Below are positions 4,956 to 33,081 of a stretch of DNA of 35,170 nucleotides, one piece after another; the first letter of the stretch is position 1; every line of letters begins with the position of its first letter. Origin of the DNA: a bacterium (GTDB lineage: Bacteria; 4484-113; JAGGVC01). The translations under genes and the position numbers were made by a program. Location of the stretch: assembly GCA_039961635.1 (NCBI GenBank), contig JABRWB010000060.1, positions 1 to 35,170 of the forward strand, written 5' to 3'. The notes under the pieces were generated by a model, which saw nothing but the letters and a program-made list of their open reading frames with translations, was not told the DNA's origin and searched no databases.

Positions 4956-5980
4956 TAGATCACCTCCCGACGCGAATCGGCCAAAAGCCAATACTCCGCG
5001 GGAAATTCACAGCCCCGACGAACCTGCTCATTGCGGGAATAGGCGGTTTCAGTTACCTTGCCGCCCTTTCCGGACGATGCGCTTCCACCAGATGTTTCGC
5101 CGGAATCAATTTTACCCTCGCCGGATGAATCCTTGCCATCATCGGCCGGCTTTTTTTCGGTTTCGCCTTCGGCTGGTTTGGCCGAATCGCCGCCGCTATC
5201 ACCGGCCGCAGGCTCGGATTGTTCTTCCGAAGAAGATTCGCCCGCTCCGGCAGTGGTTTCCTTTTCAGGCTCCTTCTCCAAATACTCCTCTCCCAGACCT
5301 TCCCTTTCAACCATTTGCTCAAAGGCTGTGCCGGAGGGCGGCGCGGGCGCGAGTTCGCCGGCGTAATAGTAAAACCGGCCTTCAAGTACAATCGCGAGGC
5401 CCGTTACATCCCCAATAAGTGGCATATCCTCCGGAATGGAAACCTTATATACTTCGTAAAATCTGTTGGATCGCTTGATATCGTCCAGGAAATCAAGGAT
5501 ATTCGGGAAAGGCCCGGTCACCCGCATTTTCGCGTCCAGCATACGAACCGCCCGCAAAAGCGTTTCATCAAGCTTTTTTTCCTCGGCGGTCTTTTTTTCC
5601 TTTGATTTTTTCGCAAGCGGAATGGGCGCGGGCTCCGCCAGCGTCAGTGCCTCCACGTGGAGCCCGTGAAGCTTGGCGAGATAATGCATGAACTCGACGA
5701 TTTTTGTTTCTTGGTCTTCGGCGGGCACCAAGGATTCGACCGTTTCTTTTTCCTTCTTAAGTACGTCGGCGTACTTCCTGAATGTGGCAAGCTCGGTTGC
5801 CTTCCTGTTCGCTTCACGTCGTTCGAGTTCGAGATCCTTCAGGCTGGATTCGAGCTTGGATATTTTTCCGCGCGAAGGTACAAGATAGACCCCGATAAAG
5901 AGGCCCACCAGGAGCACAACGATAAGAATGGTGAAGAAAAACTTCCCCTTAGTGCTTTTTAAATCAAAGATGTCTGCCAT
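4955..5980 (-). CDS. pilO: Type IV pilus inner-membrane protein PilO, acidic C-terminal extension
   Basis: PilO pairs with PilN in the periplasmic alignment complex of the type IV pilus. The 341-residue protein has a short cytoplasmic N-terminus, one membrane helix (about 14-33) and a coiled coil (about 36-85). A ferredoxin-like PilO domain follows to about residue 215, including the typical VTGPFPNILDFLDDIKRSNR region. Residues about 225-310 are a low-complexity Glu/Ser/Gly/Lys-rich tail not found in ordinary PilO. The gene is 26 nt after pilN and shares bases with the pilP start. Confidence 0.85.
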   Translation of the reverse strand: MADIFDLKSTKGKFFFTILIVVLLVGLFIGVYLVPSRGKISKLESSLKDLELERREANRKATELATFRKYADVLKKEKETVESLVPAEDQETKIVEFMHYLAKLHGLHVEALTLAEPAPIPLAKKSKEKKTAEEKKLDETLLRAVRMLDAKMRVTGPFPNILDFLDDIKRSNRFYEVYKVSIPEDMPLIGDVTGLAIVLEGRFYYYAGELAPAPPSGTAFEQMVEREGLGEEYLEKEPEKETTAGAGESSSEEQSEPAAGDSGGDSAKPAEGETEKKPADDGKDSSGEGKIDSGETSGGSASSGKGGKVTETAYSRNEQVRRGCEFPAEYWLLADSRREVI

Positions 5981-6006
5981 GGCCCTTTCCCGAAGGGAGC
6001 CGACTT

Positions 6007-6693
6007 TTAAGTGGCTCCGGGTTTGGCGGCGGCATCGTTTCCTGCGGGTTTATTGGCGGAGCCGCCCTTGGCGGGCTCGCTTTCTTCCTTTTGCGGCTCG
6101 GGCGGAATATAGTCGCGCCTGGATTCCACCTGTACCGAAATTTGAAAATCCTGTACCGGCAAATCGTTGATGAACGAAAGCTGGGAACTGGAGTATTTCA
6201 CATCCCGGAACATCGGCGTAGCCTCAATGTTTGCCATGAAGTGCGAAACCGGCAAAATCGATTCCGAGTTGGTTCTTCCCAAAATCGTTATCTTTCCGGC
6301 GTTCTTTTTTTCTTTATCGGTTTCAGACCTAAGCTCGTAAAGCCAGACGTCATCCGGCACCAGTGGAGAAATACCCCGAATAAACTCCGGCCAGTCAACG
6401 AATCCGTTCTGAAGGTAATTGAACATGGCCTTCTTTTTTTCGACCTTGGCGATCTCGCCCGAAATACGGTCGTATTCCTTCACGGACGGCGCAAGTGACG
6501 CAATCTCCTGCTTGGTGACGTCAATTTTAACCGTCAGGCTGTGGATTTGCGACTGCGTCAAAAGCAGCGTAACAATTACGAACAGAACCGCCAGCCCTAC
6601 AACCAGCCCGAAGAAGATTGGAAAAATCGTAACCGTCGGCGCCGGCCTGAACTCTGGCGGAAGCAGGTTGAGCCTGATATTTCTAATGCTCAT
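6007..6693 (-). CDS. pilN: Type IV pilus assembly protein PilN
   Basis: PilN binds cytoplasmic PilM through its N-terminal peptide and pairs with PilO in the periplasm. The 228-residue protein starts with the conserved INLLP-like motif (IRLNLLPPEFR, residues 6-16), which docks on PilM. One membrane helix (about 22-46), a coiled coil (about 50-85) and the ferredoxin-like domain follow, and the last ~30 residues are Pro/Lys/Ala-rich. Its ATG overlaps the pilM stop as ATGA, so translation is probably coupled. Confidence 0.9.
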   Translation of the reverse strand: MSIRNIRLNLLPPEFRPAPTVTIFPIFFGLVVGLAVLFVIVTLLLTQSQIHSLTVKIDVTKQEIASLAPSVKEYDRISGEIAKVEKKKAMFNYLQNGFVDWPEFIRGISPLVPDDVWLYELRSETDKEKKNAGKITILGRTNSESILPVSHFMANIEATPMFRDVKYSSSQLSFINDLPVQDFQISVQVESRRDYIPPEPQKEESEPAKGGSANKPAGNDAAAKPGAT

Positions 6694-7778
6694 TCACCGA
6701 GCCCCTCCAAGGCGAGACCAAAGGCGGCGCAATAATCTGATGGAGATTGGCAAACCTCATTCGGCTGGACGTTCGTCAGTACAGGATGATCGTATCCGAA
6801 AGGATTCGCTTTTAAAACAGGCATTCTGAGCTTGTCTGACAGCAGCTCGCTCAAATTCTTGGGCCAAATACCGAATCCGGCCAAGATAATTTTGCCGATA
6901 TGAATGTCGCTCCGCTGCTCCTGCGATTTGCAAAAATGAACGGTGCGCTCTATGTCTTCGGCGACTTCGCCGATAATCTGGGAAACGTAAATCTCGTTGT
7001 CCGGCGCGACCTCCAGCGACTCGATTTCCGCCGGATCCAGCTCCTGCCCCTCTTCCATTCGCATCGCTTCCTGGAAGACTTGCTGGATATGGGAGCCGCC
7101 GATCTTGATGTTGCGAATGAACTTGAGGTTTCCGTCTTCCAGAATTATCACGTCGCTTGAATATTGCCCCATAAAAACCACTATATTGCCGCCATCGTAA
7201 AGCAGGTCGCTCTTGTACTCCAGGGACTTTATAGTGGAGAATGGAGCAAGATTCAGACCGTGAACTTCCAGCCTGGCGTTCATCAGCGTTTCGAGATACG
7301 GATTGATCGTGTTTCTCGGAATCGCCACTATCAGAACTTCCAGCTTTGGCTTTCCATCTTCCTGATATTCCCTAAGAATCGAGTAATCTATGAGTTTTTC
7401 ACCGGATTCGTCCGTGGCGAACTGCTCGACCTCGTACTGGATGCTGTTGCGCAGGTCGTCTTCGGGCATTTCGGGAAACGGGAGAATCCGGATGACGGCA
7501 TGCCGCGACGGCGTGCATGCAACAACTGATCGCGTTTTTATTTCGGAGCTTTCGAGGAAATTGGATATCTCCCTTGCGACCGCGAAGCTGTCAAAGCTTT
7601 CCGGATCGCCGGTCTCCTGCTTCGGGTAGTACACGGTTCCGATCATCGTAAGGCCGATGCCGCCCTTGTCGCGCGCGAGACCGACCAGTCGTGCGGACTG
7701 GGTACCGAAATCGACGCCAATCACTTCCTTTAAATGCGGAAGCCGCGCCTTCCCCTTCTTCTTCGCTGAAAGTGCCAT
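6690..7778 (-). CDS. pilM: Type IV pilus assembly ATPase-fold protein PilM
   Basis: PilM is a cytoplasmic actin/FtsA-like protein that binds nucleotide and recruits PilN. The 362-residue product shows the phosphate-1 motif VIGVDFGTQSARLVGL near residue 20, a second phosphate-binding region (NIVVFMGQYSSDVIIL), and the adenosine motif ILAGFGIWPKNL near the end. The reading frame stays open to 7835, but the ATG at 7778 is chosen because a near-consensus promoter (7820-7792) ends 13 nt before it; starts further upstream would lie inside or ahead of that promoter. It is the first gene of the pilMNOPQ operon. Confidence 0.92.
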   Translation of the reverse strand: MALSAKKKGKARLPHLKEVIGVDFGTQSARLVGLARDKGGIGLTMIGTVYYPKQETGDPESFDSFAVAREISNFLESSEIKTRSVVACTPSRHAVIRILPFPEMPEDDLRNSIQYEVEQFATDESGEKLIDYSILREYQEDGKPKLEVLIVAIPRNTINPYLETLMNARLEVHGLNLAPFSTIKSLEYKSDLLYDGGNIVVFMGQYSSDVIILEDGNLKFIRNIKIGGSHIQQVFQEAMRMEEGQELDPAEIESLEVAPDNEIYVSQIIGEVAEDIERTVHFCKSQEQRSDIHIGKIILAGFGIWPKNLSELLSDKLRMPVLKANPFGYDHPVLTNVQPNEVCQSPSDYCAAFGLALEGLGE

Positions 7779-7791
7779 TTGAGGCACGGCT

Positions 7792-7820
7792 ATTCTAGGC
7801 GCGTCGAAGGAGTTTGTCAA
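7792..7820 (-). promoter_or_regulatory. Promoter of the pilMNOPQ operon
   Basis: The minus strand carries TTGACA (7820-7815), a 17-bp spacer and TAGAAT (7797-7792), a near-perfect sigma-70 type promoter. The predicted start site is about 6 nt upstream of the pilM ATG, leaving almost no 5' leader and no room for a Shine-Dalgarno site. Confidence 0.85.
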
Positions 7821-7891
7821 GCTTTTCCACAACAATTCACATCACACAAATATTTAGATACGCTATTTCACATTACAGTGAAGGTTGAAAT

Positions 7892-17733: not shown

Positions 17734-19431
17734 CTATCCCGGCGGCTGGTAAATTTCCGCCCATCCGCACATGAAGTTGGCCAGCGCCGCGCCAACGTTT
17801 TGGTTTGCCCATGTGTTCGGATGCGAATCGCCGTCCGTCGGGCTTATTTCGTACTCCGAGCGGAGCATGTTCGCGGTCGGGCTTGGACCGTCAGGCTCCG
17901 CAAGCTGATCGAACACGTTGAAGCAGAGAAGGTTCGGATGCGCGGAGCCAAGATACTCGCCGGAGGACAGCCAGTTCGCGAAAGCGCGGGCGCGCGCGGC
18001 CTGCGCGGAATCCGTCGAAAGCCGGTGCAGCGGCGGGAATCCCATAACGATGAATAGCTTGTCCCTCCGCGTGTCGAAGAAATCCCGCATTTCCAGATAC
18101 CATGTCTTGTATTGCTCCAGCTGCGCTTCGCTTTCTATGCCCGCGGCTGGGAAGCAGCTTTTGAACGCGATGACTTCGTGATTGTCGAGAATCATGTTGC
18201 GGGAGAAAACCGCGTCCGCGTTCTGCGACGTCCAGAGGTAATGCAGTCCGTCGGGGTCCGTGTTGTCGCCCGGTATTTCGTAACTGATGTCCTGCCAGTC
18301 TCCGTTTTCGTCAAAGTATTCGCCGTTGTATCCGTGATCACAGAACGTATAGCTCGTTCCGTGTTCCGCGTTGTATTCGGCGATTCTGCCGCGCATATTT
18401 CCTTCAAAAACGAATCCCGATCCCGTCGAATGATGGAGGAAGAACAGCTTGGTAAGCTGTTCCCCGTGAAGCGGGACGACCTGTATCACGAACGGGAAGG
18501 TGTCGCTTCCCGCTGCGTTGGAAACAAACAAGCTCGCGTTGTAAGACCCGGTGAATCCGGTAATCGTAACGTGCGGCTCGGCCTCGGTGGACGTCGGGGG
18601 ATCGCAGGCGCCGCCGAAAGTCCAGCTGTACGCGAACGGCGCGGTTCCGGTGATTTCCGCGCTGAAAACCTGCGCGCTTGAAGCATCGACCGCCAGAGGA
18701 TCGATTGAGATAATTTCCGGGGGAATTACGGCACCGGTCACATTCACCGCAACGCTGGCCGGGCCTTCCGCGTTTTCCGCATCTCCCGGCCGCACCGCGA
18801 CGTAATCCTGCGCGCCGCCGGGAAGCACAACAGAAAATTGCGGCGGCACCGTTCCGGCTAGGTGGGACGAGAACGGCACCGTTGCGATTTCTGTAAACGG
18901 CCCGGACGCGGAGTCCGACGTCAGGATGTCGTAGTGATCCACGACGCCCAGGAAGTTGAGCGCGATTGGAGTGATATCGGACACTCCGACCTCGCCGCTT
19001 CCGTCGCCGTCAATCCAGGATTCGAGCGCGTCGTCGCCCGCGCCGTCGTTCGAATCGGCCTGGAAATTGAGCGCGATTGGCGTGATGTCCGCGACGCCGA
19101 CTTCCCCGTTCATATCGTAGTCCCCGCCGTTTCGGTAAGTCCACGAAAGCTCGTTCGCGCCGGGATTGTAGCTTAGATCGGTAACTGTGCCCGCCTGCTG
19201 GGTCGGCGGCGCGGACACGCGTCGCGCGCGCGGCCCGAGCGCGGCAAGCTCGTCCGCAAGCTTTTGCTTGAGCGATTGGAAAAGCGCGGGGTCGACGCCT
19301 GAAGGCGGCGCGCATCCAAGGAATTCCCGCGGAATATCCGAAGCTGTTGCCTTGGAACCCGCGTTCGAGGAACAGCCAAATGCAACGAGCACGGCGGCAG
19401 TAAGTGCGAGCCGCGAAATCAATGCGCTCAT
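17734..19431 (-). CDS. Lipoprotein with dockerin-like repeats, PKD-like domain and SGNH-like hydrolase domain
   Basis: The 565-residue product has a lipoprotein signal peptide (residues 1-20, lipobox VAFGC, Cys20). Two dockerin-type EF-hand loops sit at 104-123 (DYDMNGEVGVAD) and 141-160 (DGDGSGEVGVSD); both end in DITPIALNF. An Fn3- or beta-sandwich-like part (about 165-235) and a PKD-like domain (about 236-320, YSWTFGG) follow. The C-terminal ~240 residues resemble SGNH/GDSL hydrolases: HHSTG (333-337, candidate nucleophile Ser335), KSCFP (424-428) and DSHPN (535-539, candidate Asp/His). It is probably a surface esterase or carbohydrate-active enzyme. The ATG at 19431 follows a GGGGGTG ribosome site. 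Substrate unknown. Confidence 0.8.
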   Translation of the reverse strand: MSALISRLALTAAVLVAFGCSSNAGSKATASDIPREFLGCAPPSGVDPALFQSLKQKLADELAALGPRARRVSAPPTQQAGTVTDLSYNPGANELSWTYRNGGDYDMNGEVGVADITPIALNFQADSNDGAGDDALESWIDGDGSGEVGVSDITPIALNFLGVVDHYDILTSDSASGPFTEIATVPFSSHLAGTVPPQFSVVLPGGAQDYVAVRPGDAENAEGPASVAVNVTGAVIPPEIISIDPLAVDASSAQVFSAEITGTAPFAYSWTFGGACDPPTSTEAEPHVTITGFTGSYNASLFVSNAAGSDTFPFVIQVVPLHGEQLTKLFFLHHSTGSGFVFEGNMRGRIAEYNAEHGTSYTFCDHGYNGEYFDENGDWQDISYEIPGDNTDPDGLHYLWTSQNADAVFSRNMILDNHEVIAFKSCFPAAGIESEAQLEQYKTWYLEMRDFFDTRRDKLFIVMGFPPLHRLSTDSAQAARARAFANWLSSGEYLGSAHPNLLCFNVFDQLAEPDGPSPTANMLRSEYEISPTDGDSHPNTWANQNVGAALANFMCGWAEIYQPPG

Positions 19432-19472
19432 GCAATTCACCCCCTTGCGGCCGGGAAACCCGCCGCGGATTT

Positions 19473-21274: not shown

Positions 21275-21682
21275 CTAGTCGTCCGAAATGCTCACAATGT
21301 CGCCCGTCGCAAGCTCGGCGGTCAAATCCCCGTCCGGCTCGCAAACGAACGGGATGCGCGCGAGAATCGCCCCTTCCGCGAGATTGTAATCCGCGGGCTT
21401 AATAGTAATCAGAGCGGCGGGGGCTTTACCCTTTTTCGCGAGCGCTTGAAGCACGACGCATCCGCCGGAGCTGCCTTTCGTCTCGGTGTAAATCAGCACT
21501 TTTCCGGCGATAGTTTGGCCGCGAGCGGGATTGCCCGCGGCGATTATCTCGCCCGTGTCCATGTCCACGTCTCCGAGAAAAGAAAAGCTGCCTGGACAAA
21601 CGACCGCGGGCGCGGATGCGCTGCCGCGCACGACGCGGCGGGCGGAATAGGATTTGCCGGAAGACTCGATTTTCACATTCAC
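21275..21682 (-). CDS. Aconitase X swivel (small) subunit
   Basis: The 135-residue protein corresponds to the aconitase swivel domain of aconitase X: VVRGSASAPAVVCPGSFSFLGDVD near the start, GEIIAAGNPARGQTIAGKVLIY in the middle, and a C-terminal ADYNLAEGAILARIPFV. It closes over the catalytic subunit to form the active site. The GTG at 21682 shares one base with the stop of the catalytic gene (TAGTG) and has GGAGGCG 6 nt before it. Translation is probably coupled for 1:1 subunits. Confidence 0.88.
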   Translation of the reverse strand: MNVKIESSGKSYSARRVVRGSASAPAVVCPGSFSFLGDVDMDTGEIIAAGNPARGQTIAGKVLIYTETKGSSGGCVVLQALAKKGKAPAALITIKPADYNLAEGAILARIPFVCEPDGDLTAELATGDIVSISDD

Positions 21683-23007
21683 TATTGACGCCTCCCCGCC
21701 ACCGCCGCCTCGATGCAGGCGTCGGTCGCCGCCAGCGCGGTTTTGCACCCGATCAAATCGCCGACGTAGCGCGCCATCTTTGCGCTGTCGGTCACCATCG
21801 CGGCGACGTTCGGCACAGGCAGGCCGTACTCGCGGCAGGTGGACTGGCGCATGTGGCTCTCGACCGGGCAGGTATCCGCGACGAGCACCGCGCCCGCGGC
21901 TTCAATCGCAGAGGCGTACCCTGAATATTCCGCCTGTTTGCGCGTCATCCGGTTGGTGCAAATCCAGAACCGCACGCCGTCCGCGACGCGCCTGCCGCGC
22001 AGCCGCTGTGCGACATGTTTTATTTGCGCAAGGTTGTAATGCGGGCAGCCGAGCGTGACGAAATCAATCGGCGCGCCGGAGAGAATTGTCGTCAACCTGT
22101 CGCGGACAACGTTAAGATCGCGCTCTGTAACTTCGATTGTTTCCGCGGGCGGTTTGCCCTGAAACGCTTCTTCTGTCGTCCGCGCTTCGGGCGTGACGCC
22201 GACCATGTGAAACAGCGTGACGCTGCCGCTGGTCGCAAGCGCCGCGCCGAAGCCGATTAGGAAATCCTGGCGAGCGGTGCGAACGCCCGTGATCACCGGC
22301 ACTTCGCTGCCCACGATGCTTCCGATGTGGAACCCTAGCGCGCACCACGCGTCGTATGTCGAAAGCTTTTCCGGCGGGATGTCCACGTGAAAGTGATGCG
22401 TCCCGCGGCGGTTCTCGGAAAGCAGATATCCCATCAGCGGATACTTGCCGGTCATCGCGGAGTAGCGCGTGAAAAGCCCGCCGCGGTTAGTGCGCGCGCC
22501 CAGAACGCTGTTGAAATAGATGATCGCGGACGATTCGACGCTCGCGATTACGCTTCCGAACGGCGGGACGAATCCCAAAAGCTGCGGCGTGCAGGTGTAG
22601 GTTTCGAGGATGCCAAGCGCGCGGTGCGCGGTCTCGACGCGCGCCTGCGAGCGCGCTAGCGCCGCGGGGCAGCCGGTGCAATCGGGGCGTTCGAGATCGC
22701 AGCAGAGCGTGGAAGTGGTCGTCGGAACGCGGACGCGCGCGCCCGCGTTTTCATCCCCAAAACGCGAAGCGCCCATCGCGCCGATTGCATCGACGCCATT
22801 CGCTCTGCATTTAGCCGCGTAATCGACCAGATCCTCTACGCTGCCCTCGTAGATCGCCATCTCTGCGGGATAGTGACAGTACGAAATATCGGCAAGCCGC
22901 GGCGCGTCGAACGCTTCGCCGAACTGGACGAGATAGTCCATCGCCTCCGCGAGGACGGGGCCGGAAGAGCCGGAGAGGAGAACGCGTTCGGTATCGGTGA
23001 GGTGCAT
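21682..23007 (-). CDS. Aconitase X catalytic (large) subunit
   Basis: The 441-residue protein is an AcnX-type dehydratase with an iron-sulfur cluster. Family marks include YFNSVLGARTNRGG (164-177), GCPHYNLAQI (320-329), DTCPV (378-382) and several other conserved cysteines. Known members dehydrate cis-3-hydroxy-L-proline (bacteria) or mevalonate 5-phosphate (archaea). No proline or isoprenoid gene is nearby, so the substrate is open. The ATG at 23007 is preferred to the longer frame (to 23043) because TATAAT (23020-23015) ends 7 nt before it. First gene of a two-gene operon with the swivel subunit. Confidence 0.88.
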   Translation of the reverse strand: MHLTDTERVLLSGSSGPVLAEAMDYLVQFGEAFDAPRLADISYCHYPAEMAIYEGSVEDLVDYAAKCRANGVDAIGAMGASRFGDENAGARVRVPTTTSTLCCDLERPDCTGCPAALARSQARVETAHRALGILETYTCTPQLLGFVPPFGSVIASVESSAIIYFNSVLGARTNRGGLFTRYSAMTGKYPLMGYLLSENRRGTHHFHVDIPPEKLSTYDAWCALGFHIGSIVGSEVPVITGVRTARQDFLIGFGAALATSGSVTLFHMVGVTPEARTTEEAFQGKPPAETIEVTERDLNVVRDRLTTILSGAPIDFVTLGCPHYNLAQIKHVAQRLRGRRVADGVRFWICTNRMTRKQAEYSGYASAIEAAGAVLVADTCPVESHMRQSTCREYGLPVPNVAAMVTDSAKMARYVGDLIGCKTALAATDACIEAAVAGRRQ

Positions 23008-23014
23008 CAATACC

Positions 23015-23020
23015 ATTATA
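23015..23020 (-). promoter_or_regulatory. -10 box of the aconitase X operon
   Basis: A perfect minus-strand TATAAT lies 7 nt from the ATG at 23007, predicting a leaderless mRNA. No clear -35 is seen. Confidence 0.6.
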
Positions 23021-23056
23021 ATTCCGGCATCCGCCGGGCGCACCCGTTTTCCAGCT

Positions 23057-23812: not shown

Positions 23813-25524
23813 TCGGCCACGTCCGGTTTCACCACCTCCACCACCACCGCGCTCGGGTACTCGCTCGTGTGCCACACAACTTGATGCGCGACTTGCCAAT
23901 CCGTCGCGTCCGCCTGCGGCTCCTTCGTGTTCAGGTGGCGGCAGAACTTGGGCACCGCGCTGGACGACACTTCGAGCCTAATCGAATGCCCGCGCAAAAA
24001 CCTTATCCCAGTCGCCCACATGTCCACGACGACTTTGTACACCTTGCCCGGCTCCAGCCACTCGGGAGATTCGAGCGAGTTGCGGAATTCCGCCCGCTGT
24101 ATGCCATCGCAAAGCTGGATCGCGCGGCCGTTCGGCCACACGTCCACCAGCTTCGCGGTGAAGTCCGTCGCCGGAACGTCCGTCGAGATGTAAAGCTCCG
24201 CGAACACACGCCCGCAAATCACAACGTCTTCTTCGAGTGGCGCGGTCGTGTACACAAGCACGTCCGGCCTGCGCTCGATGGATTGCTGGTCGGTCGCCTC
24301 GCCGAGTTGAAGCGCGACGGGATCGGTCACGTACGGGACGGGATTCGCGGGATCGTAAGTGAATAAATCGCAATCCGCGGCGTCTACATCTCCTTGCCTC
24401 TGTGCCTCTGTGGTTAATTTGCCATCCCCGAACAGCGAATTCGCGTTCCCGCCGCTGGATAAATACAGCCGCTTCGTTTCCGCGCCGGTAGGCGGCCAGT
24501 CGTCGAATCCGTGCCAGCGGTTTTCTCCCATCAGGAAGATGCGGCACCGCGGTTCGCCGCCCAGTCCATGATCCTCACCCGCGAGATACTTTGCAAAGAA
24601 TTTCAACCGGATGGCATTCAGGTCTATAACCGCGCCCGCGCCGAAGTCCACCTCCCCCACTACGCTGGATACGTTCACCTTGTGCGGCCACGGCCCGATG
24701 ACGAGCATCTGCGCATCGCGCGCCTCCGCGGTCGCGGCTTCCCGGCGCATTTTCGGATAGTTGATGTACGTCGAAATCCCGTCGTCGTCGTACCAGCCGC
24801 ATATGTGCAGCGCGGGGATGTCTACGCGCCCCAGCTTGTCCATGTAGCAGACTTCCTTCCACCAGTCGTCCAGCGCCGGGTGATCGCACCAGTTCTGCCA
24901 GGTCGCGCTTTCCATCCCCGCCGCCTTGTCCAGCGTCCGAAGCGGCAGGTGCAGGAACAAATCCTTCCAGTTCGCGACTCCGGTGTTCTGATTCACTCGC
25001 CCATGCACCATCAAAGCCCAGACAACCATGTTCCAAAACAGCGCTCCGTTTTGGTAAGGCACGTTGATTACTGGATCGGGAAGCGGAACTATCGGGCATA
25101 TCGCTTTGAGCGCCGGATGCCTGTCGTACGCGACCACCCAAGTGCAGTAGCCCTCGTAGCTCCCACCGGTTACGCCTACGCTGCCGTTGCAGAAGTCCTG
25201 CGCGGCCAGCCACGCGATCGTGTCCATTCCGTCGTTGCGCTCGCTCCTGAAAGGCTCCCACTCGCCCTCGCTGTCGTATCGCCCGCGGCAGTCCTGGAAC
25301 GCGCACGCGAATCCGCGCCGCGCGAAATAAAGCAGCCGCTCCGCGCGCTGCGCGTCGCTGTTCCCATAAGGCGTGCGTGTGAGCAAAACCGGCCACGGCC
25401 CGGAGTGATTCGCGTTGCCTTTCGGGATGAACAGATCGGTCGAAAGCCGGATGCCGTCGCGCATCGGCACCATCGCATGGACGAGATGCTCGATTTCGTA
25501 TTCGGGAACAGAAGTTGTTATCAA
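23809..25524 (-). CDS. CocE/NonD-type alpha/beta hydrolase (X-Pro dipeptidyl-peptidase S15 family)
   Basis: The 571-residue protein begins with the family N-terminus (VPMRDGIRLSTDLFIPKG, LLTRTPYG) and has the nucleophile elbow GGSYEGY with Ser122. An acidic stretch GWYDDD and GPWPHK provide the likely Asp and His of the triad. The C-terminal third is the jelly-roll domain of the family (RGHSIRLEVSSS). Such enzymes cleave acyl esters, or beta-lactam or dipeptide substrates; specificity cannot be told. TTG 25524 is the start, with GAGAGG 6 nt before it. An in-frame insertion of a widespread repeat (24391-24420) encodes the linker LTTEAQRQ between catalytic and jelly-roll parts. No signal peptide, so cytoplasmic. 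Confidence 0.87.
   Translation of the reverse strand: MITTSVPEYEIEHLVHAMVPMRDGIRLSTDLFIPKGNANHSGPWPVLLTRTPYGNSDAQRAERLLYFARRGFACAFQDCRGRYDSEGEWEPFRSERNDGMDTIAWLAAQDFCNGSVGVTGGSYEGYCTWVVAYDRHPALKAICPIVPLPDPVINVPYQNGALFWNMVVWALMVHGRVNQNTGVANWKDLFLHLPLRTLDKAAGMESATWQNWCDHPALDDWWKEVCYMDKLGRVDIPALHICGWYDDDGISTYINYPKMRREAATAEARDAQMLVIGPWPHKVNVSSVVGEVDFGAGAVIDLNAIRLKFFAKYLAGEDHGLGGEPRCRIFLMGENRWHGFDDWPPTGAETKRLYLSSGGNANSLFGDGKLTTEAQRQGDVDAADCDLFTYDPANPVPYVTDPVALQLGEATDQQSIERRPDVLVYTTAPLEEDVVICGRVFAELYISTDVPATDFTAKLVDVWPNGRAIQLCDGIQRAEFRNSLESPEWLEPGKVYKVVVDMWATGIRFLRGHSIRLEVSSSAVPKFCRHLNTKEPQADATDWQVAHQVVWHTSEYPSAVVVEVVKPDVAD
24391..24420. repeat. Dispersed repeat of the CCTCTGTGCCTCTGTGGTTAA type inside a CDS
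   Basis: The plus strand reads GCCTCTGTGCCTCTGTGG then TTAATTT, itself an 8-nt tandem (CCTCTGTG twice). On the coding strand it gives LTTEAQRQ. From memory this DNA and its TTEAQR peptide recur in many environmental bacterial genomes as a dispersed repeat. It interrupts a segment where other CocE proteins have a variable linker. Confidence 0.6.
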
Positions 25525-25569
25525 AGCTTTGCCTCTCTTGCATGTCGGCCAAGGCCGATTAGCCGCGGA

Positions 25570-25598
25570 ATTCTATCCTTTGAGCAATGGCCGGTCAA
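25570..25598 (-). promoter_or_regulatory. Promoter of the CocE/NonD hydrolase gene
   Basis: Minus-strand TTGACC (25598-25593), a 17-bp spacer and TAGAAT (25575-25570). The leader would be about 39 nt, long enough for the GAGAGG ribosome site used by the TTG start. Confidence 0.75.
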
Positions 25599-25686
25599 TC
25601 AAATCCGAAAGGCTGTTTTCCATTTTCGGTTTCCGAACGGTTTTGCGGTCTCGCGCGCATAAGCGAGGCAAATCGTCCTGATTGTC

Positions 25687-25695
25687 TGCTATAAT
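25687..25695 (+). promoter_or_regulatory. Extended -10 promoter of the Hsp70 operon
   Basis: TGcTATAAT is a perfect extended -10 element. The predicted start site is about 28 nt before the ATG at 25730. No CIRCE-like repeat is seen next to it, so heat regulation by HrcA is not evident. Confidence 0.6.
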
Positions 25696-25729
25696 GAGCT
25701 GTTTATAGCCCTTCCGGGACGTGTGGTAG

Positions 25730-28700
25730 ATGCCGCAGCTGAAAAAAGGAGTTTTGGTCAAGAAGCTGGACGCTGTCCGCGCGGCCGCATCCAAGGGCAA
25801 GGACATAGAAAAGCTGGTGACCGACTCCCTCGTCGAATCCGGCAATGACTTGAGCGAGGAGGATCGCAAGGCTCTCAACGGCCTAAGATTCGAGCTTGCC
25901 AAGTTCTGGTGGGAGAACAACCGCAAAACTGAAGCTCTGGATACGTTGCTGGAGTTTTTCGACGGTTATGTCGAAGAAGACTGGACCGCCCAAGCCGCCG
26001 ATTGGATACGAAACGACCAAATCACGGACATCAAGTACCGTCCGATTCTCGAAAAGCGGCTGGAAATAGCTCCCGAAGACCGCCGGGCCAACCTATCGCT
26101 GGCGAAAATGGTTGCCGACCTTCCTTCGCCAACGGATGAAGACATTGACATTGTCGTCCGCGCGGTCAAAGAGCATCCTCTTTGGAAGGGCGGCTCAAGC
26201 ATACTTTCCATCCGTTACCTTGCCGAGGGCAGAACCGACGCCGAAGCGCTGGACGTTTATAAAAACGCATATCGCCACAACAAGGACAACGAAGAACTTG
26301 TCAGGATTCTTACTCAATCGCTTATAGAAAACCAGGACAAGAGCGAGTTCGCGCTCAAGTTTTACCGCGACCAGCTTGACGCGGGCCGCGACGTCCCGAA
26401 AGCCCTGGGGCTGCTGTGCGACGCCTATTTGGAAAAAGGCGAAATTTCTCCCACCACTTGGCCTTTCATCGCTGACGCGCTCGGACGGGGAATGCTATCT
26501 CCCGAAGGCGTCAAACACGTCAGCGATTTCATCCTGACCCAGGAAAAGTCTTACTTCAATAGGCGCGACCTGGCGGAGCAGGTTTACGAACGCGGCTACC
26601 GCGGCCAAGAGCTGCTGCAGTATCTTGCCGACGAGTATGCAAGCGAGCTCGATATTTCAGAGCGCACCATCCCGTTGTTTCAGGACGCGTTCAAGCAGCA
26701 CGCGCTCTCCAAGCGCAGCATACGCGCGCTGACCGAGCACTTTCTTGGAAGGGATGACAGGGGGGATTTTGCCTGCCGAGTGTATGAAACGTACCTTTCG
26801 ATGGTACCGGAGCTTCCCCAGCGAAAGCTGTACGAGCTTTTGGCGCAGCACTATATCCAGCTGGGCAGGGCTGACGAACAGGCGAAAAAAATATACGAGG
26901 AAGCGCTTACCACCGATCCGGACAATCCGGAAATCATCCGCATGCTCGCCATTACTTACCTCGCCTACCACACGGATACGCAAGCCGCCATAGATATTTA
27001 TCGCCGCGCGTTCAATATCGTTACCGACGATTTCACGCGTGAGAAAATCGCGTTGATTCTTGCCGAGCACAACGTAAAGATAAAGCGGTTCGACGAAACC
27101 ACGCTCGAATATCTGATGACGCTGAAGGGAGCTTATCCCGCGCATCTGGAGCAGCAGTTTTCTGAAGCGCTCGGATATTGCTTCATGAATCTGGACAGGC
27201 ACGACGAGGATGCGAAGCGGCATTATCAGCGCCTGTACAAATCATCGACGAATCCGCCGGCAAGGCTCATTCGGGTACTCGCCCAAATTGCAGTCGAAGA
27301 GCACCAAGAAGGGAAACCTTACTCGTCCGAAGAAATCAGGCTCTTCGAACAGGTTTTCGAACTCGAGCGCTTTTCGTGCGATCCCGAAGTGGGCTTCGCT
27401 CTGTTGACACACAGATTAAAGGAAAATATAGAAGACCCGAGACTTACTCAATACGCCGTGCGTTGTTTTGAAGCCGACCGCGCGAGGCTGGTCAAGCTTT
27501 TGGGTGAAAACGGCCGACCGAATCTACTCGTGGGCATAGGCGACTTTTACGCGGAAAAGTTCAATTACGAACAAGCCACCGTTGCCTACAAGGACGCGGC
27601 CGAGCAGACCAATCTGGATTCGGCCAAGTACCGCTTCGCCAAGATGCTGATTATCGGCGGAGACGCGAAAGGCGCGCTGTCCATTCTTAGCAAGCTCAGC
27701 ATCGGTGGAAAGAAGGACGAAGCGCAGAACCTGTATTGGCGCGGTGTATGCCACCTGACACTCGAAGATCACCGTTCGGCCGCGGAGTGTTTCAATCGAA
27801 TCGCCGAAGATGCGGAGATGGCGTCTCACATTCCCGGCTACCTGATCAAGTTGCGGCGCGGCCAGGCGCAGGAACTAAACTTCGAATGGCAAAATGCAAG
27901 GGCAAGCTACCGCGAAGTTTTGGACGATCCGGAGGCGCGAAACTTTCATCGCTGGGCGGAAATCGAAATCTCGATGCTTTATCTCAAAGAGAAACGATAC
28001 GAAGAAGCGCTGGCGCAGACCGAGGCATCGTACAACAAGAACCGCACGGGCCGGGCGGAAAGCAGGTATTATTCGACCGCTCTTTTTTATTGCGGGGCGA
28101 CAGCGCTGAAGGAAGGCGACATCAAAAAAGCCACGTCCCTGCTTTTCCAGAGTGTTCAAGTGGATATGGGCGACAGGCTGATCCGCGACGTGATTACCGA
28201 CCTGCTTTTGATTGAGGGCGAAAAGGCGTTTTTCGCGAGGGATTTCGAACGGGCTCGCAAACTTCTGGAAACGTCGCTGGCGATTCTGCCTCGCAGAATT
28301 GACACCCGCTCGCTTCTGGCTTTCGCTTGTCACGAGCTGCGCGATTATGACCAGGCAATACTGCATTATGTGAATGTTCCCTGGGACCAGGTGCCCGAAG
28401 AGCTGGAACAAAGTCAAGCATATGCCTATTTTTCAAGCAAAAGGCTTGAAAAGGCATGGCGCGTTTTCGCCGACCTGCTGCGGAAGGGGAAATTCAACAA
28501 GGCCGATTTGCCACTGCTTTTCGCCAGTTACCTGTCAGACCCCGTTTGGGAAGGAGCCAAGGTTTTTAAGGATATTGAATTCGATGACGATACCATCGAA
28601 TTCGCCCAGCTTTATGTCCACGACGGCCAGTACAAACGGGCGCTGGAGCTTCTCTCGAAGCTGGCCAAAACCGACGAGTACAAGAATGACTTGCGTATAT

Positions 28701-29689
28701 TTTGGTTCCAGGGGCTGGCGAATGCCAAGCTGGGCAATCGCGAAATGGCCGTCCACTTCTGGCGCGAAATATTGAAAAACGCCGACCGTCCGGATGTCGA
28801 CAAGAGCAAGCGGATGCAGGAGTACCTTGAAATCGGACTTGCGTTCCTGGAGTCCGGCTATGCAAAGGAAGCAATGCAAACCTGGGAAGCATTGGCCGGC
28901 ATCGATCCGCATTTCGAGCACTTGCCGAAGTTGTACGCGGAAACACTATCGTTGAACGCGTACCAGCTCGTGCGCAAGGCCGACCAGGTTAAAACGGCGA
29001 TTAGCGAATGGAAAAAGGCGCTTCAATATGACCCGAAGAACATGCGGCTCATCCAGAATCTCGCCATCGCGTACTGGCAGATGGACGATTTTGGCAACAG
29101 CACCAGGTTCTGGAACCGGATGATCGACTGGTGGAAAAAAGAACTGGAGCGCAAGCCCAGGCAGAATGCCGTTTACAGCGTTTACATAGCGGAAATCCAG
29201 CGCGTGCTGACCGATTTGATCACAACGAAAGGCAAGGCGGAGCACGACCTCGCCAAGGTACGCACCGAAGATGTGATTGACTACTACCAGAAAGCAAACA
29301 AGTTTTACTGGCTGCTCAATCTGGACAAGCGTGCAAGCATCCCGCAAATCGAACGCGCTTACTTCCGGCTTGTTAAAATTTTCAATCCGGAGCGTTTCGC
29401 GGATGATTTCATGCTGCTCGAAGAGGCCTACGCCAACCTGACGGATTCCGCGAAGAAGGAGAAAATCGATCTTTTCGCCTACAACCCGTTGTACTTGGAT
29501 GAGCTTAGAACGACGGTCTGGGGCGGCAAACACGTCAACGTGTTCGGCGCCTTGAAGATAAAGGTCAATCCGCCGCTGCCCAGATACACCTACCTCAAGC
29601 CGTCGGGACTGGACTGGAACGAGGTAATGGACAAAGTCACGGAGCGCCTAAAACTGAATCTCAAGCTGCCCGACTGGAATCTCGTGTGA
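25730..29689 (+). CDS. Giant TPR protein with a C-terminal degenerate J-like domain
   Basis: The 1319-residue soluble protein is mostly helical TPR repeats (for example LYELLAQHYIQLGRADEQAKKIYEE and MRLIQNLAIAYWQMDDFGNSTRFW). Residues about 1190-1249 read like a DnaJ J domain: KFYWLLNLDKRAS, QIERAYFRLVKIF, then FMLLEEAYANLTDSAKKEKIDLF. At the place of the essential HPD tripeptide it has NPE (1219-1221). A conserved-looking 70-residue tail follows. It is the first gene of a GrpE-DnaK operon and overlaps the GrpE gene. I infer that the TPRs bind a client or scaffold and that the J-like domain docks on the operon's Hsp70, perhaps without stimulating its ATPase. No signal peptide or membrane helix. 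Confidence 0.8.
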   Translation: MPQLKKGVLVKKLDAVRAAASKGKDIEKLVTDSLVESGNDLSEEDRKALNGLRFELAKFWWENNRKTEALDTLLEFFDGYVEEDWTAQAADWIRNDQITDIKYRPILEKRLEIAPEDRRANLSLAKMVADLPSPTDEDIDIVVRAVKEHPLWKGGSSILSIRYLAEGRTDAEALDVYKNAYRHNKDNEELVRILTQSLIENQDKSEFALKFYRDQLDAGRDVPKALGLLCDAYLEKGEISPTTWPFIADALGRGMLSPEGVKHVSDFILTQEKSYFNRRDLAEQVYERGYRGQELLQYLADEYASELDISERTIPLFQDAFKQHALSKRSIRALTEHFLGRDDRGDFACRVYETYLSMVPELPQRKLYELLAQHYIQLGRADEQAKKIYEEALTTDPDNPEIIRMLAITYLAYHTDTQAAIDIYRRAFNIVTDDFTREKIALILAEHNVKIKRFDETTLEYLMTLKGAYPAHLEQQFSEALGYCFMNLDRHDEDAKRHYQRLYKSSTNPPARLIRVLAQIAVEEHQEGKPYSSEEIRLFEQVFELERFSCDPEVGFALLTHRLKENIEDPRLTQYAVRCFEADRARLVKLLGENGRPNLLVGIGDFYAEKFNYEQATVAYKDAAEQTNLDSAKYRFAKMLIIGGDAKGALSILSKLSIGGKKDEAQNLYWRGVCHLTLEDHRSAAECFNRIAEDAEMASHIPGYLIKLRRGQAQELNFEWQNARASYREVLDDPEARNFHRWAEIEISMLYLKEKRYEEALAQTEASYNKNRTGRAESRYYSTALFYCGATALKEGDIKKATSLLFQSVQVDMGDRLIRDVITDLLLIEGEKAFFARDFERARKLLETSLAILPRRIDTRSLLAFACHELRDYDQAILHYVNVPWDQVPEELEQSQAYAYFSSKRLEKAWRVFADLLRKGKFNKADLPLLFASYLSDPVWEGAKVFKDIEFDDDTIEFAQLYVHDGQYKRALELLSKLAKTDEYKNDLRIFWFQGLANAKLGNREMAVHFWREILKNADRPDVDKSKRMQEYLEIGLAFLESGYAKEAMQTWEALAGIDPHFEHLPKLYAETLSLNAYQLVRKADQVKTAISEWKKALQYDPKNMRLIQNLAIAYWQMDDFGNSTRFWNRMIDWWKKELERKPRQNAVYSVYIAEIQRVLTDLITTKGKAEHDLAKVRTEDVIDYYQKANKFYWLLNLDKRASIPQIERAYFRLVKIFNPERFADDFMLLEEAYANLTDSAKKEKIDLFAYNPLYLDELRTTVWGGKHVNVFGALKIKVNPPLPRYTYLKPSGLDWNEVMDKVTERLKLNLKLPDWNLV

Positions 29690-30537
29690 TGAAACGAGCG
29701 GTCGATCGCGTTGACTTCACAAGGGAGCAATACTATACTGCCCCGATTGGCGGGACCGATTGGCAACGGCGGGAAGCCGGCGAGCCGCGCGAGTCGCTCT
29801 TCTCGATCAAGGCCGAGTTGGCCCGGCTATCACTGCACATTGAACGATTGGGCAAGGAAGAGGAGCGGCTCGCAGCCGAGGTCAGAAACGCGGCCGAAGG
29901 GTCGGTCGCTCTTCGAGCCGAAGTCGAAGCCAAATCGAACGAAATCCAATCGAGGCTGGACAGCCTTAGGGCGCTTTTTGCAACCAGGCTTGCTTCAATT
30001 CTTCCGGCCATAAAGGATGCCGCTTCGAACTTGGACGAATCCCTGAAATCCGAGCTGGCGGCGCTGGCAAGGCTTGTGGAGTCGCGGGCGCCTTCGGATG
30101 GCCAGGGGATGTCTCTTGCTCCCGACTTTGCCGGTCAGCTGAACCGTATCGAATCCTCGCTTGCTCTTAAAGACAGGATCGAAACGGAAGCAATCCAGAA
30201 GCGCGAAATTCTGGACATGATTGCGGTCGTAGACTCCTTTGACAGGCTGCTTTCGTTTTTGGAATCAAGCGGCGAATCGCCCTCCGAATCCTGGGCGGTG
30301 GGAGTTAAAAGCATCCACAAGCTGCTTCTGGAACTCCTGGCAAAGCGCGGGGTAAAACCGATAGAAGAGTTGGACAAGTTCGATCCGCATATACATCAAG
30401 CAATTGGCACCGTGGACAGTCCCGACTTGCCGGAGGGCGCCATCGCCAAAGTGCTTCTGCGGGGATTTCTTGTAAAGGGTAAAGTGTTAAGATGCGCCGA
30501 GGTGGTGGTGGTTCGCCGCAAAGGCGTCGGCAGTTAA
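29689..30537 (+). CDS. GrpE-like nucleotide exchange factor with long N-terminal coiled coil
   Basis: The C-terminal ~120 residues match GrpE: a helix with MIAVVDSFDRLLSFLES, KRGVKPIEELDKFDPHIHQAIG, then EGAIAKVLLRGFLVKGKVLRCAEVVV, the beta domain that opens the Hsp70 nucleotide cleft. The 282-residue protein is longer than ordinary GrpE (about 190-200). Its first ~160 residues are charged coiled coil after a Trp/Tyr-containing head. ATG 29689 is used (TGATG overlap with the upstream stop); GTG 29686 is the alternative. The gene serves the DnaK encoded 42 nt downstream. Confidence 0.85.
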   Translation: MKRAVDRVDFTREQYYTAPIGGTDWQRREAGEPRESLFSIKAELARLSLHIERLGKEEERLAAEVRNAAEGSVALRAEVEAKSNEIQSRLDSLRALFATRLASILPAIKDAASNLDESLKSELAALARLVESRAPSDGQGMSLAPDFAGQLNRIESSLALKDRIETEAIQKREILDMIAVVDSFDRLLSFLESSGESPSESWAVGVKSIHKLLLELLAKRGVKPIEELDKFDPHIHQAIGTVDSPDLPEGAIAKVLLRGFLVKGKVLRCAEVVVVRRKGVGS

Positions 30538-30579: not shown

Positions 30580-32322
30580 ATGGGGAACATCGTAGGCATT
30601 GATCTGGGCACGACAAACTCGCTGATCGCGACCATCTGGAACGGCGAGCCGACGCTGATACCGAACGAGCGCGGCAGTTACATCACGCCGTCCGTAGTCG
30701 GATTCACCGAAACCGGCGAACTGCTGGTTGGCGAGCCGGCCAAAAACCAGCTCGTCGCCAATCCGGAGCGTACGGTCGCTTCCATCAAGCGCTTGATGGG
30801 GAGCGAGCGCAGGATCACAATCGGCGACAAAGACTTTTCGCCCCAGGAAATCAGCGCGGTAATCCTGAAAAAGCTCAAGCTCGACGCTGAAACCTTTCTG
30901 GGCTCACAGGTGGAGGAAGCGGTTATAACGGTTCCCGCATACTTCACCGACGCGCAGCGTCAGGCGACCAAGGACGCCGGCGAAATAGCCGGCTTCAAAG
31001 TGGAACGCATCATAAACGAGCCTACGGCCGCCGCGCTGGCGTATGGTTTCGACAAAGTCGAGGCGAAAACGATTCTCGTCTACGACCTCGGAGGCGGCAC
31101 TCTCGATGTCTCCATAATCAAACTGTTCGAGGGCGCGTTCAAGGTGCTGGCCACGGCCGGCATCAACACGTTGGGCGGCGACGACTTCGATTACCGCATC
31201 GTAGAGTACCTGATCGAGCAATTCAAGCAAAAAGAAAAGGTGGATATCAACACGATTCCCGATCTCGCCCAACAGCGCTCGATCAAGCAGAGGTTGAAGG
31301 AAGCGGCGGAACTTGCGAAGATAGACCTCTCCAGTCTGCTTGAAACGAACATAAACCTTCCGTTCCTTTATACGGGCGGAGTGGAGCCGCTGCACCTGAA
31401 CGAAAATCTTACGCGGGCGAAGTTGGAAGAGCTTACGGCCGACCTTATAAACCGCACGACGCAGCCCATCGAAAGCTCGATGGCGGACGCAAAGCTGACG
31501 GTTGACGATATTGATGCCGTAATTCTTGTCGGCGGCCAAACCCGCATGCCGGCCATCCAGCGCCTGGTCAAGCAGGTTATGGGCAAAGATCCGCTGCGCG
31601 ACATCAATCCGGAGGAATGCGTCGCGACTGGCGCCGCGATCCAGGCGGGCATCAAACGCGGCCATCTGCAAGACCTTGTGGTGGTGGACGTGGCACCGTT
31701 CACCCTCGGCATCGAAGTCGAAGGCGGCCGCTTCAGCGAAATCATCCCGCGCAATACAAGCGTTCCGTGCAATCGCAAAAGAATTTACGTAACTACAGTG
31801 GACAACCAGACCGAAGCGCATATCCACGTGCTTCAGGGCGAAAGCCCCATGGCCGCGGAGAACACGAGCTTGGGCGAGTTCATCCTGACCGGCATCACCC
31901 CCGCGCCTAAAGGCGAATCGCTTGTCGAGGTAAATTTCGACTACGACGTCAACGGCATAGTCAAGGTAACCGCGCAGGACCGCCGCACCGGAACGGCGAA
32001 GAGCATTACCATCAAAAGTTCCAAGAGCCGCTTGACCGAGGAAGACGTTCGGATGGCCAAGCGCGACGTGAGCAAGTACACGGGCTCGATGTTGTCCCAG
32101 CGCGACAAGAGCAAGCTCTTCTTTGAAGGCGAAGGCGCACTCGACAAGGGAATCAAGATACTCAAGCGCGCGCAGGCCGGCGACATCCGGATGTCCGAAG
32201 GCTCGATGTCCAAACTTGAAACCGCATGCAAAGAGCTGAAGGAATCCCTGCTTTCCGGAGACGAAGGAAAGGTCGAATCCGCCCTTGAAATCGTTACCGG
32301 GTTCATCTCCGAATATTCGTAA
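30580..32322 (+). CDS. Hsp70 chaperone (DnaK-type, tail-less)
   Basis: The 580-residue protein has the full ATPase domain: GIDLGTTNS (6-14), RIINEPTAAALAYGFDK (143-159) and DLGGGTLDVSI (169-179). The interdomain linker (DLVVVDVAPFTLGIE) and the substrate-binding domain (RNTSVP, GEFILTGITPAPKG, VNFDYDVNGIVKVTAQD) follow. It lacks the Gram-negative-type insertion in the first lobe and the disordered C-terminal tail, so it is shorter than housekeeping DnaK (about 610-640). Arg143 matches the E. coli Arg167 J-domain contact, and the linker Asp is kept, so it should still accept J proteins. Third gene of the operon. A housekeeping dnaK may exist elsewhere, so the gene symbol is left open. Confidence 0.92.
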   Translation: MGNIVGIDLGTTNSLIATIWNGEPTLIPNERGSYITPSVVGFTETGELLVGEPAKNQLVANPERTVASIKRLMGSERRITIGDKDFSPQEISAVILKKLKLDAETFLGSQVEEAVITVPAYFTDAQRQATKDAGEIAGFKVERIINEPTAAALAYGFDKVEAKTILVYDLGGGTLDVSIIKLFEGAFKVLATAGINTLGGDDFDYRIVEYLIEQFKQKEKVDINTIPDLAQQRSIKQRLKEAAELAKIDLSSLLETNINLPFLYTGGVEPLHLNENLTRAKLEELTADLINRTTQPIESSMADAKLTVDDIDAVILVGGQTRMPAIQRLVKQVMGKDPLRDINPEECVATGAAIQAGIKRGHLQDLVVVDVAPFTLGIEVEGGRFSEIIPRNTSVPCNRKRIYVTTVDNQTEAHIHVLQGESPMAAENTSLGEFILTGITPAPKGESLVEVNFDYDVNGIVKVTAQDRRTGTAKSITIKSSKSRLTEEDVRMAKRDVSKYTGSMLSQRDKSKLFFEGEGALDKGIKILKRAQAGDIRMSEGSMSKLETACKELKESLLSGDEGKVESALEIVTGFISEYS

Positions 32323-32334: not shown

Positions 32335-33081
32335 ATGAACGGCGAAAACCTGGCCAGTTGTCCGGTATGCGGGGGCGAAATAGCGGCAGGCGCGTCCGTC
32401 TGCCCGGACTGCACCGCGGACATCAACTCCTTCCGAAAGCTCATCGAAGATGCGCGCCGCTATCTTGACGCGGCAAGGCTGGCGCTGGCGCGCGGCGACA
32501 AAAACGAAGTCGAAAGGCTGTGCACCGACGCGCTCAAGCTTTGGGACGGATGCGCCGGCGAAGCGAAGGCGCTTCTTGCAAAAACGGCAATAGTCTCCGG
32601 AGACTTCGAAGCCGCCCGAAAGCGGCTTTCGGAAATCCCCGAAGGCGCGGAAAGAGTACGCCTTGCGGAAGAACTTGAACGCGCGGAGCAAAAACTATTC
32701 GCCGCGGCGGAACGCTACAACGTCGCATTGACCTGCGCGCGAAAAGCTCAATACAGGGAGAGTATTTCCCAACTTGAAAAGGCAATTGAATTGGCGCCGG
32801 ATCTGAAACAGGCCTATCGCTTGCTTGCAAAAGCAAATATCGCCCTAGGCGATTTTGAAGCCGCGAGAGCCGCCGTTTCAAAAGGTCTTTTGAGATTTCC
32901 CGGGGATGCGGAACTTGCGCAACTGGAAACCGAATTTTCGGACGCCGGGAAGCCATTCAAGGGAGCAGTCGGATTTCCATTTGCCTCACCGGGATTCGTG
33001 GCCGCGATGCTTATGGCCCAGACCGCGCTTCTGGCAATCATTCTTGTTCTTCTGGCCGTAATCCTGTTTTCGTCCAAATGA
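32335..33081 (+). CDS. Zinc-ribbon/TPR tail-anchored protein of the Hsp70 operon
   Basis: The 248-residue protein has an N-terminal zinc ribbon (CPVCGGEIAAGASVCPDC, residues 9-26), then helical TPR-like repeats (about 35-205). A single C-terminal membrane helix (about 222-245) is followed by only SSK, a tail-anchored layout with the ribbon and TPRs in the cytoplasm. It lies 12 nt after the Hsp70 gene. I infer that it tethers the chaperone module to the inner membrane. No named family recognised. It shares the zinc-ribbon plus membrane-helix plan with the genes at 9444 and 10928. Confidence 0.75.
   Translation: MNGENLASCPVCGGEIAAGASVCPDCTADINSFRKLIEDARRYLDAARLALARGDKNEVERLCTDALKLWDGCAGEAKALLAKTAIVSGDFEAARKRLSEIPEGAERVRLAEELERAEQKLFAAAERYNVALTCARKAQYRESISQLEKAIELAPDLKQAYRLLAKANIALGDFEAARAAVSKGLLRFPGDAELAQLETEFSDAGKPFKGAVGFPFASPGFVAAMLMAQTALLAIILVLLAVILFSSK

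Follow-up and report, generated by a model that had tools for sequence, protein, structure and literature searches.

A J-like domain with Asn-Pro-Glu in place of HPD and a second Hsp70 with inverted docking charges: a putative dedicated chaperone pair in a bacterial class

A J-like domain that reads Asn-Pro-Glu in place of the HPD motif, and the second Hsp70 (DnaK2) encoded in the same gene run, would form a dedicated J:Hsp70 pair with a charge-inverted docking patch, probably triggering through the glutamate; from sequence comparison this reading is given a probability of roughly 0.55. The run lies in a stretch of 35,170 nucleotides (hereafter the window), contig JABRWB010000060.1 of assembly GCA_039961635.1, from a bacterium of the GTDB lineage Bacteria; 4484-113; JAGGVC01. 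It comprises the genes for a large TPR protein that carries the J-like domain near its C-terminus (TPR-J), a GrpE (GrpE2), DnaK2 and a small TPR protein (Table 1). The constancy of the motif, the constancy of the gene order, the charge pattern and the kept sockets on the Hsp70 are established directly. That the J-like domain docks on DnaK2 appears quite likely, and the chance that, once docked, it triggers ATP hydrolysis would be somewhat better than even.

The order TPR-J, GrpE2, DnaK2 and last TPR gene is identical in the window and in all nine further class genomes analysed (10/10), and the genes flanking the run on both sides point in the opposite direction. Two GrpE genes are present in nine of the ten class genomes, G008 showing one (G numbers denote genomes); the housekeeping DnaK1 exceeds 600 residues in nine of them and is a 382-residue piece in G008. 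No CIRCE element (HrcA box) was matched in the window at up to 3 mismatches, and a promoter scan of 25400-25800 returned a single site, on the minus strand, and none for the TPR-J operon. In G001 (L102:9558-11643), GroES- and GroEL-like frames, recognised by eye, lie upstream of TPR-J in the opposite direction. The window also holds, by eye and all on the minus strand, a PilQ-P-O-N-M-like type IV pilus assembly run (1930-7835), a lipoprotein-like gene whose repeated DITPIALNF motif resembles a dockerin or EF-hand repeat (17734-19440), and two overlapping frames that resemble an aconitase X-type enzyme split into a small and a large part (21275-23043).

Table 1. Features of the TPR-J gene run in the window; residue positions refer to E. 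coli DnaJ and DnaK.
Feature	Position	Strand	Basis
TPR-J protein, 1319 aa: TPR solenoid, C-terminal J-like domain, conserved C-terminal tail	25730..29689	+	ORF; Pfam TPR_19 3.2e-22, DnaJ; orthologues in 9 other class genomes
J-like domain	29303..29470	+	PF00226 match, 32.5 bits (genome search); 31.0 bits, C-terminal piece alone
Glu at DnaJ R22 position (basic in canonical J domains)	29351..29353	+	E in 10/10 class J-likes; K/R in 20/20 canonical J domains aligned
Asn-Pro-Glu at HPD position (DnaJ 33-35)	29384..29392	+	sequence; NPE 8 / DPE 2 of 10
Glu at DnaJ K51 position	29420..29422	+	E in 16/16 pairs whose DnaK2 has K/R at 217
GrpE2, nucleotide exchange factor	29689..30537	+	Pfam GrpE 1e-25 (ORF taken from 29686); ATG overlaps TPR-J stop (TGATG)
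DnaK2, second Hsp70, 580 aa	30580..32322	+	Pfam HSP70 4.8e-187; apart from same-genome DnaK1 in both trees
DnaK2 Arg at DnaK R167 position (partner of HPD Asp), kept	31006..31008	+	R in 24/24 xPE-partner Hsp70s
DnaK2 Lys at DnaK E206 position (J-docking acid)	31120..31122	+	K/R in 10/10 class DnaK2; E in 9/9 DnaK1
DnaK2 Lys at DnaK E217 position (J-docking acid)	31141..31143	+	K in 10/10 class DnaK2; E in 9/9 DnaK1
Small TPR protein, last gene of run	32335..33081	+	Pfam TPR_19 9.3e-13; weak zinc-ribbon matches under cut-offs; hydrophobic C-terminal stretch by eye; same place in 9 other class genomes

A large part of the TPR-J frame matches TPR profiles, and the J-domain match is C-terminal (Pfam). 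Against PF00226 (cut-off 27.8 bits), the whole protein scores 27.7 bits, just below the cut-off, and the C-terminal piece alone passes it; the genome search with the same profile gave an E-value of 2.8e-7. A profile built from 11 J-likes retrieves DnaJ among PDB sequences at 9.6e-10. The structure models are weak, and the assignment of the J fold hence rests on these profiles. An AlphaFold model of the J-like domain with its tail, made from a two-row alignment, reached a pLDDT of 39.9 and was discarded, and that of the J core alone reached 62.7. A predicted fold unlike a J domain, which the initial annotation had named as a refutation, was not obtained: the four best Foldseek matches of this modest J-core model are to J domains, and ERdj5, a protein that contains one, ranks fifth, though none of them is significant (best E 1.1).

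The substitution of HPD by NPE, which the initial annotation had reported, is confirmed by the sequence of the motif region (...IERAYFRLVKIFNPERFADDFMLLEEAYANLTD..., plus strand), in which NPE forms residues 1219-1221 and the loop reads FNPERFADDF. Its description of the change as a loss of both His and Asp holds for the histidine; the aspartate is replaced by glutamate in every orthologue, which is a conservative change and not a simple loss. A type IV (HPD-altered) JDP combines a recognisable J domain and a non-conservatively changed HPD, and in this respect the change of His to Asn or Asp is non-conservative, that of Asp to Glu conservative. Orthologues of TPR-J occur in all nine other class genomes at 35-67% identity, one of them ending at a contig end; a search over 60 genomes found 17 with any match, those in the seven non-class genomes being short pieces. 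When the ten C-terminal parts were aligned, the comparison of homologues that had been proposed, HPD stood at this place in none of them, and the Pro, the Glu and the Arg that follows were invariant; the residue after NPER is Phe in the window and His in the nine orthologues. The class shows no variation at six J-like residues (E22, F26, R27, K30, P34 and E35). The ten class genomes contain 35 J domains above the Pfam cut-off, ten being those of TPR-J and the other 25 all reading HPD. The same motif class in all ten genomes, with xPE motifs in further lineages, bears out the view that this is a real conserved J-like family and neither a one-off mutation nor decay.

Barriot et al. are said to have surveyed the J proteins of prokaryotes in 2020. 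Here, a search of 385 genomes with the 11-J-like profile, in some of which the best 14 candidates were scored, gave matches of 67 bits or more in at least 19 genomes, the next match being at 52 bits. The J-likes of all 19 genomes read xPE (x = N, D, S, T or P). Below this gap HPD and xPE domains are mixed, the latter in G112 (three), G209 and G231, and a broader profile adds xPE J-likes in G385, G090 and G152. The three frames of G112 (L152, L153, L156) measure 445, 560 and 1082 aa and read PPEK, SPEK and SPES, and G152 (L225) has a 453-aa frame with another xPE J-like domain, NPEYYPEEF. For gene linkage outside the class, the nine non-class genomes above the bit gap and G209 were taken together. 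The J-like, GrpE and DnaK genes are adjacent in this order in seven of these ten (G021, G308, G169, G145, G274, G137, G209); GrpE alone adjoins the J-like in G254, and both are absent beside it within the stretch read in G118 and G381, the second DnaK lying elsewhere. In G021, G308, G169, G274 and G137, whose frames measure 427-441 aa, the J-like domain precedes the TPRs, and some J-like frames outside the class have no TPR (122 and 119 aa). In G145 a TPR protein and a 122-aa J-like are separate neighbouring genes before GrpE and DnaK (L147:944-5842), a split form of the fusion seen in the window. The loop between the motif and helix III offers a second mark of the family, as it counts 5 residues in 21/21 xPE rows and in DjlB/DjlC and 10-12 in 20/20 canonical rows of a joint alignment, which omits 5 of the 25 HPD domains, one of them (L050) looking shorter by eye, about 7. 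The class J-like is itself an xPE, short-loop domain, with P-E in the motif and 5 residues before helix III.

In E. coli, the residues R22, K26, R27, K48 and K51 of DnaJ make contacts with E206, D211, E217 and D477 of DnaK, and in the motif H33 contacts the L391 backbone, P34 contacts P419, and D35 contacts R167 and Q378, according to the passages cited (PMC8215388). The class J-likes keep R27 and replace R22 by Glu, K26 by Phe, K48 by Met and K51 by Glu; with a hydrophobic residue at 26 and Met at 48, part of the canonical docking is gone. DnaK2 is basic at 206 and 217, where DnaK1 of the same class is acidic (Table 1). The D211 loop is absent in all of the 26 other Hsp70s aligned with it, DnaK1 included, and D211 is hence uninformative. 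None of the 24 J-like/DnaK2 pairs sets like charges against each other at 22/206 or 51/217; 17 of the pairs are gene-adjacent and 7 are assumed (G118, G254, G381, G385, G231, G090, and G112 with one of its three J-likes), and the 51/217 pairing is our own, not being named as a contact in the cited literature passages. If the 14 J-likes of the E22 sub-branch that have a DnaK1 in the alignment are set against the HPD-partner DnaK of their own genome, like charges meet in 12 at 22/206 and in all 14 at 51/217.

The interface lead was checked in six genomes outside its discovery set, the prediction for G118 having been set beforehand. Where the J-like has E22, the second DnaK carries at 206/217 K/K (G118), R/R (G231) and K/R (G090); it carries K/K in the two genomes with Q22 (G381, G385) and Q/K in the one with K22 (G254). 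Eight J-K22 genomes from other lineages have Glu at 206. At 47 positions an acid is found in at least 85% of 28 HPD-partner Hsp70s, and three of these, 31, 206 and 217, carry a base in at least 85% of the 16 DnaK2s of the sub-branch (hypergeometric P 0.0028, which ignores descent). Within the class alone, 4 of 55 conserved acids turn basic in DnaK2 (31, 206, 217, 534; P 0.0040, again ignoring descent), and conversely 4 of 39 conserved bases turn acidic (44, 159, 585, 597). Charge reversals in both directions thus occur on DnaK2 outside the J site as well. Eleven columns separate 24 xPE-partner from 32 HPD-partner Hsp70s, and four of them (217, 391, 392, 480) belong to an interface set of 12 among 195 conserved columns (P 0.0022, ignoring descent), the set having been assembled from passages of PMC5519331, PMC8215388 and PMC7289447 after part of the data had been seen. 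L391, among the separating columns, is the residue whose backbone takes the His33 hydrogen bond. The loss of D481 was considered as a further mark of xPE partners (19/24 and HscC) and rejected, as N481 occurs in 27/32 HPD-partner Hsp70s.

The xPE-partner Hsp70s are likely monophyletic, to judge from the trees. They form one side of a midpoint-rooted FastTree tree (support 0.983); in an IQ-TREE analysis with HscC and HscA, both on long branches, the separation of HPD-partner from xPE-partner Hsp70s reaches a bootstrap of only 67. The basic state at 206 and 217 is confined to one DnaK2 clade, so that the main charge swap may be a single event, and variants within the clade are few, namely G254 (K22/Q206) and G381 and G385 (Q22). 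Against the NCBIfam models for DnaK, DnaK2 scores 697.6 with NF001413, over the cut-off of 648, and 679.3 with TIGR02350, under the cut-off of 822.55. Residues 76-101 are deleted in DnaK2 as in the HscC type, and both DnaK1 displayed lack them too, hence the deletion is non-specific for that type. The DnaK2 of G021, G308, G169, G274 and G137 (L111, L144, L145, L148, L149) are the only ones with D393H in the linker, together with N170D and D477 replaced by Lys or Arg, the other 52 aligned Hsp70s keeping N170 and D393 (E393 in one); it is as if the R167 network had been rewired in these five. Besides DnaK1, another divergent DnaK and DnaK2, the genomes G021, G169 and G308 (L184, L185, L186) contain extra Hsp70s whose frames measure 1159-1207 aa and have a long C-terminal extension.

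The sockets for the rest of the motif are unchanged, as R167, Q378 and P419 are kept in 24/24 xPE-partner Hsp70s and likewise in the class DnaK2 and DnaK1 aligned. In the mechanism that we propose, the TPR solenoid would hold a client or scaffold, and the J-like domain would dock at the usual J site of DnaK2 with the electrostatics reversed, E22 and E51 facing K/R206 and K217, an arrangement that may keep off the housekeeping HPD DnaJs with their K/R22. Pro34 would meet the kept P419, and Glu35 would act as Asp35 does on R167 and Q378, both kept, and in this way trigger ATP hydrolysis in the absence of His33. According to molecular dynamics, the HPD aspartate draws R167 off its linker and SBD contacts, the role of the histidine being left open (PMC7289447, in the passages cited); the joint retention of Glu35 and R167 (24/24) is compatible with an Asp-like act on R167. 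The first motif residue over the 24 pairs is N, D, S, T, P or G, so that no single residue takes over the histidine bond, a point that counts against the mechanism. GrpE2 would then reset DnaK2; the four class DnaK2s displayed have the GrpE signature loop, and GrpE2 hence probably works as an exchange factor.

The nearest characterised relatives by motif, loop and profile score are DjlB and DjlC of E. coli, which look like His-bearing members of the xPE, short-loop group. Like the class J-like, they have Glu for Asp, a 5-residue loop before helix III and a hydrophobic residue in place of K26, and they score 33.0 and 22.8 bits with a profile of 15 xPE J-likes against 18.1 and 9.6 bits with one of 20 canonical J domains. 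Their partner HscC is stimulated by DjlC, which reads HPE, and not by DnaJ (PMC8215388). Hence 'PE' for 'PD' is known to work, and the new element is the absence of the histidine. In the tree HscC, which has a very long branch, joins the xPE-partner Hsp70 of G112 (bootstrap 98), and those of G209 and G145 come next (95). The two systems nevertheless differ in that DjlB/DjlC keep the His and R22 and HscC keeps E206 and E217, and in architecture, DjlB/DjlC having an N-terminal J domain without TPR solenoid whereas about 1,180 residues of TPR solenoid precede the J-like domain in the class TPR-J. HscC, moreover, has no GrpE signature and would not be expected to work with GrpE, as stated in the passages cited (PMC8215388), in contrast to DnaK2 with its signature loop and its own GrpE gene; the sequences compared here likewise show the loop to be absent from HscC. 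DjlB/DjlC are tail-anchored (PMC8215388); a hint of work near the membrane comes from the TPR part and, by this analogy, from the hydrophobic end of the last gene product.

The strongest competing explanation, in line with the initial annotation and less likely than the preferred reading, takes the J-like domain for a silent tether or brake: bound to DnaK2, or to an HPD J protein, it would hold DnaK2 on the TPR scaffold without triggering it, and the cell's HPD DnaJ would fire the ATPase, or a basal rate would suffice. It draws on the statement that changes of the H and D of HPD abolish stimulation in every system tested (PMC8215388, passages cited) and on the precedent of Pam16, whose motif is DKE or DKS and whose complex partner, Pam18, has HPD (PMC13254874). 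All ten class genomes encode one or more HPD J proteins, and in G002, G005 and G007 an HPD DnaJ lies directly upstream of TPR-J, preceded by an HrcA-like gene (by eye). However, no DnaJ adjoins TPR-J in the six other readable class loci (G000, G001, G003, G004, G006, G009; upstream of G008 the sequence is cut), and the adjacent DnaJs carry K22, like-charged with K/R206 of DnaK2; K/R22 is found throughout the 20 canonical J domains aligned. A Pam16-like pairing with an HPD protein would find a neighbouring candidate in three of the nine readable loci. Further, P34 and the acid at 35 are invariant, and a mere tether would not obviously need them. Pam16/Tim16 does share an altered HPD and membership of a dedicated Hsp70 machine, the mitochondrial import motor, but it lacks the motif proline and pairs with Pam18, whereas here the Pro and the acid are invariant and the surface of the Hsp70 partner has co-varied. 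The likeness to Pam16/Tim16 drawn by the initial annotation is not supported; the operon has its own GrpE and an Hsp70 whose J-docking surface changed in step with the J-like domain. As to the trigger, HPE is described as the only tolerated change of HPD, and a designed J-domain analogue without HPD stimulated Hsc70, both according to passages of PMC13254874.

A still less probable possibility is that the interaction has been lost on both sides, DnaK2 having become J-independent and the J-like domain being kept for another task such as capping the TPR solenoid, with the opposite charges coincidental. Much of the canonical docking chemistry is indeed missing, R22, K26 and K48 being gone, and the charge reversals away from the J site fit such a view. 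Relaxed sites would drift, however, yet the six class-invariant J-like residues and the reversed charges of DnaK2 are constant; the link of J-like, GrpE and DnaK holds outside the class, including for the J-likes without TPR, and the R167, Q378 and P419 sockets remain in all 24 partners. A sequencing error, one-off mutation or pseudogene was rejected as having next to no probability, given an open frame of 1319 codons and the same motif class in 10/10 genomes and in other lineages; in its favour stood the Phe after NPER, peculiar to the window among the ten sequences.

The preferred reading, a dedicated pair with an inverted patch, can be placed beside other specialised systems. With canonical DnaJ-DnaK-GrpE it has in common the J-domain match, GrpE and Hsp70 in one run and the kept R167, Q378 and P419; it differs in the absence of HPD, the inverted docking charges and the position of the J-like domain at the C-terminal end of a TPR protein, with separate HPD J proteins and DnaK1 also present. 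Hsc20-Ssq1 of yeast mitochondria is likewise a specialised J:Hsp70 pair whose interface differs from that of DnaJ-DnaK and co-evolves, but there basic helix II residues of Hsc20 face acids of Ssq1, and Hsc20 has HPD (PMC7289447, in the passages cited). In Myxococcus xanthus, GrpS (with SglK) is likewise an additional GrpE alongside numerous Hsp70s; the cited passages mention no J-like TPR neighbour gene (PMC10313047). Within the HscC/DjlC-like specialised pairs, the new features would be a J domain without HPD that comes with a GrpE and an Hsp70 of its own, and the inverted docking patch. In the literature searched (open-licence papers), no demonstration of activity was found for a natural J domain that lacks the histidine, and among the literature matches listed, likewise open-licence papers, there was no description of an xPE J-like/GrpE/DnaK operon or of an inverted J:Hsp70 patch.

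As a broader and more tentative view, which we hold at slightly under even odds, there may be an ancient, cross-lineage Hsp70 branch whose J domains trigger without the HPD histidine by Pro-Glu alone, and one sub-branch of it may have gained pair specificity by inverting the docking-patch charges on both proteins. An altered motif that is kept over whole lineages, together with its own Hsp70 and GrpE and a co-changing Hsp70 surface, is a natural test of whether the trigger is indispensable. The domains are small and can be produced in the laboratory, hence both the need for the trigger and the pairing are open to experiment. If the J-like domain is active, the histidine of HPD would not be needed, and the class would offer a ready-made orthogonal chaperone pair.
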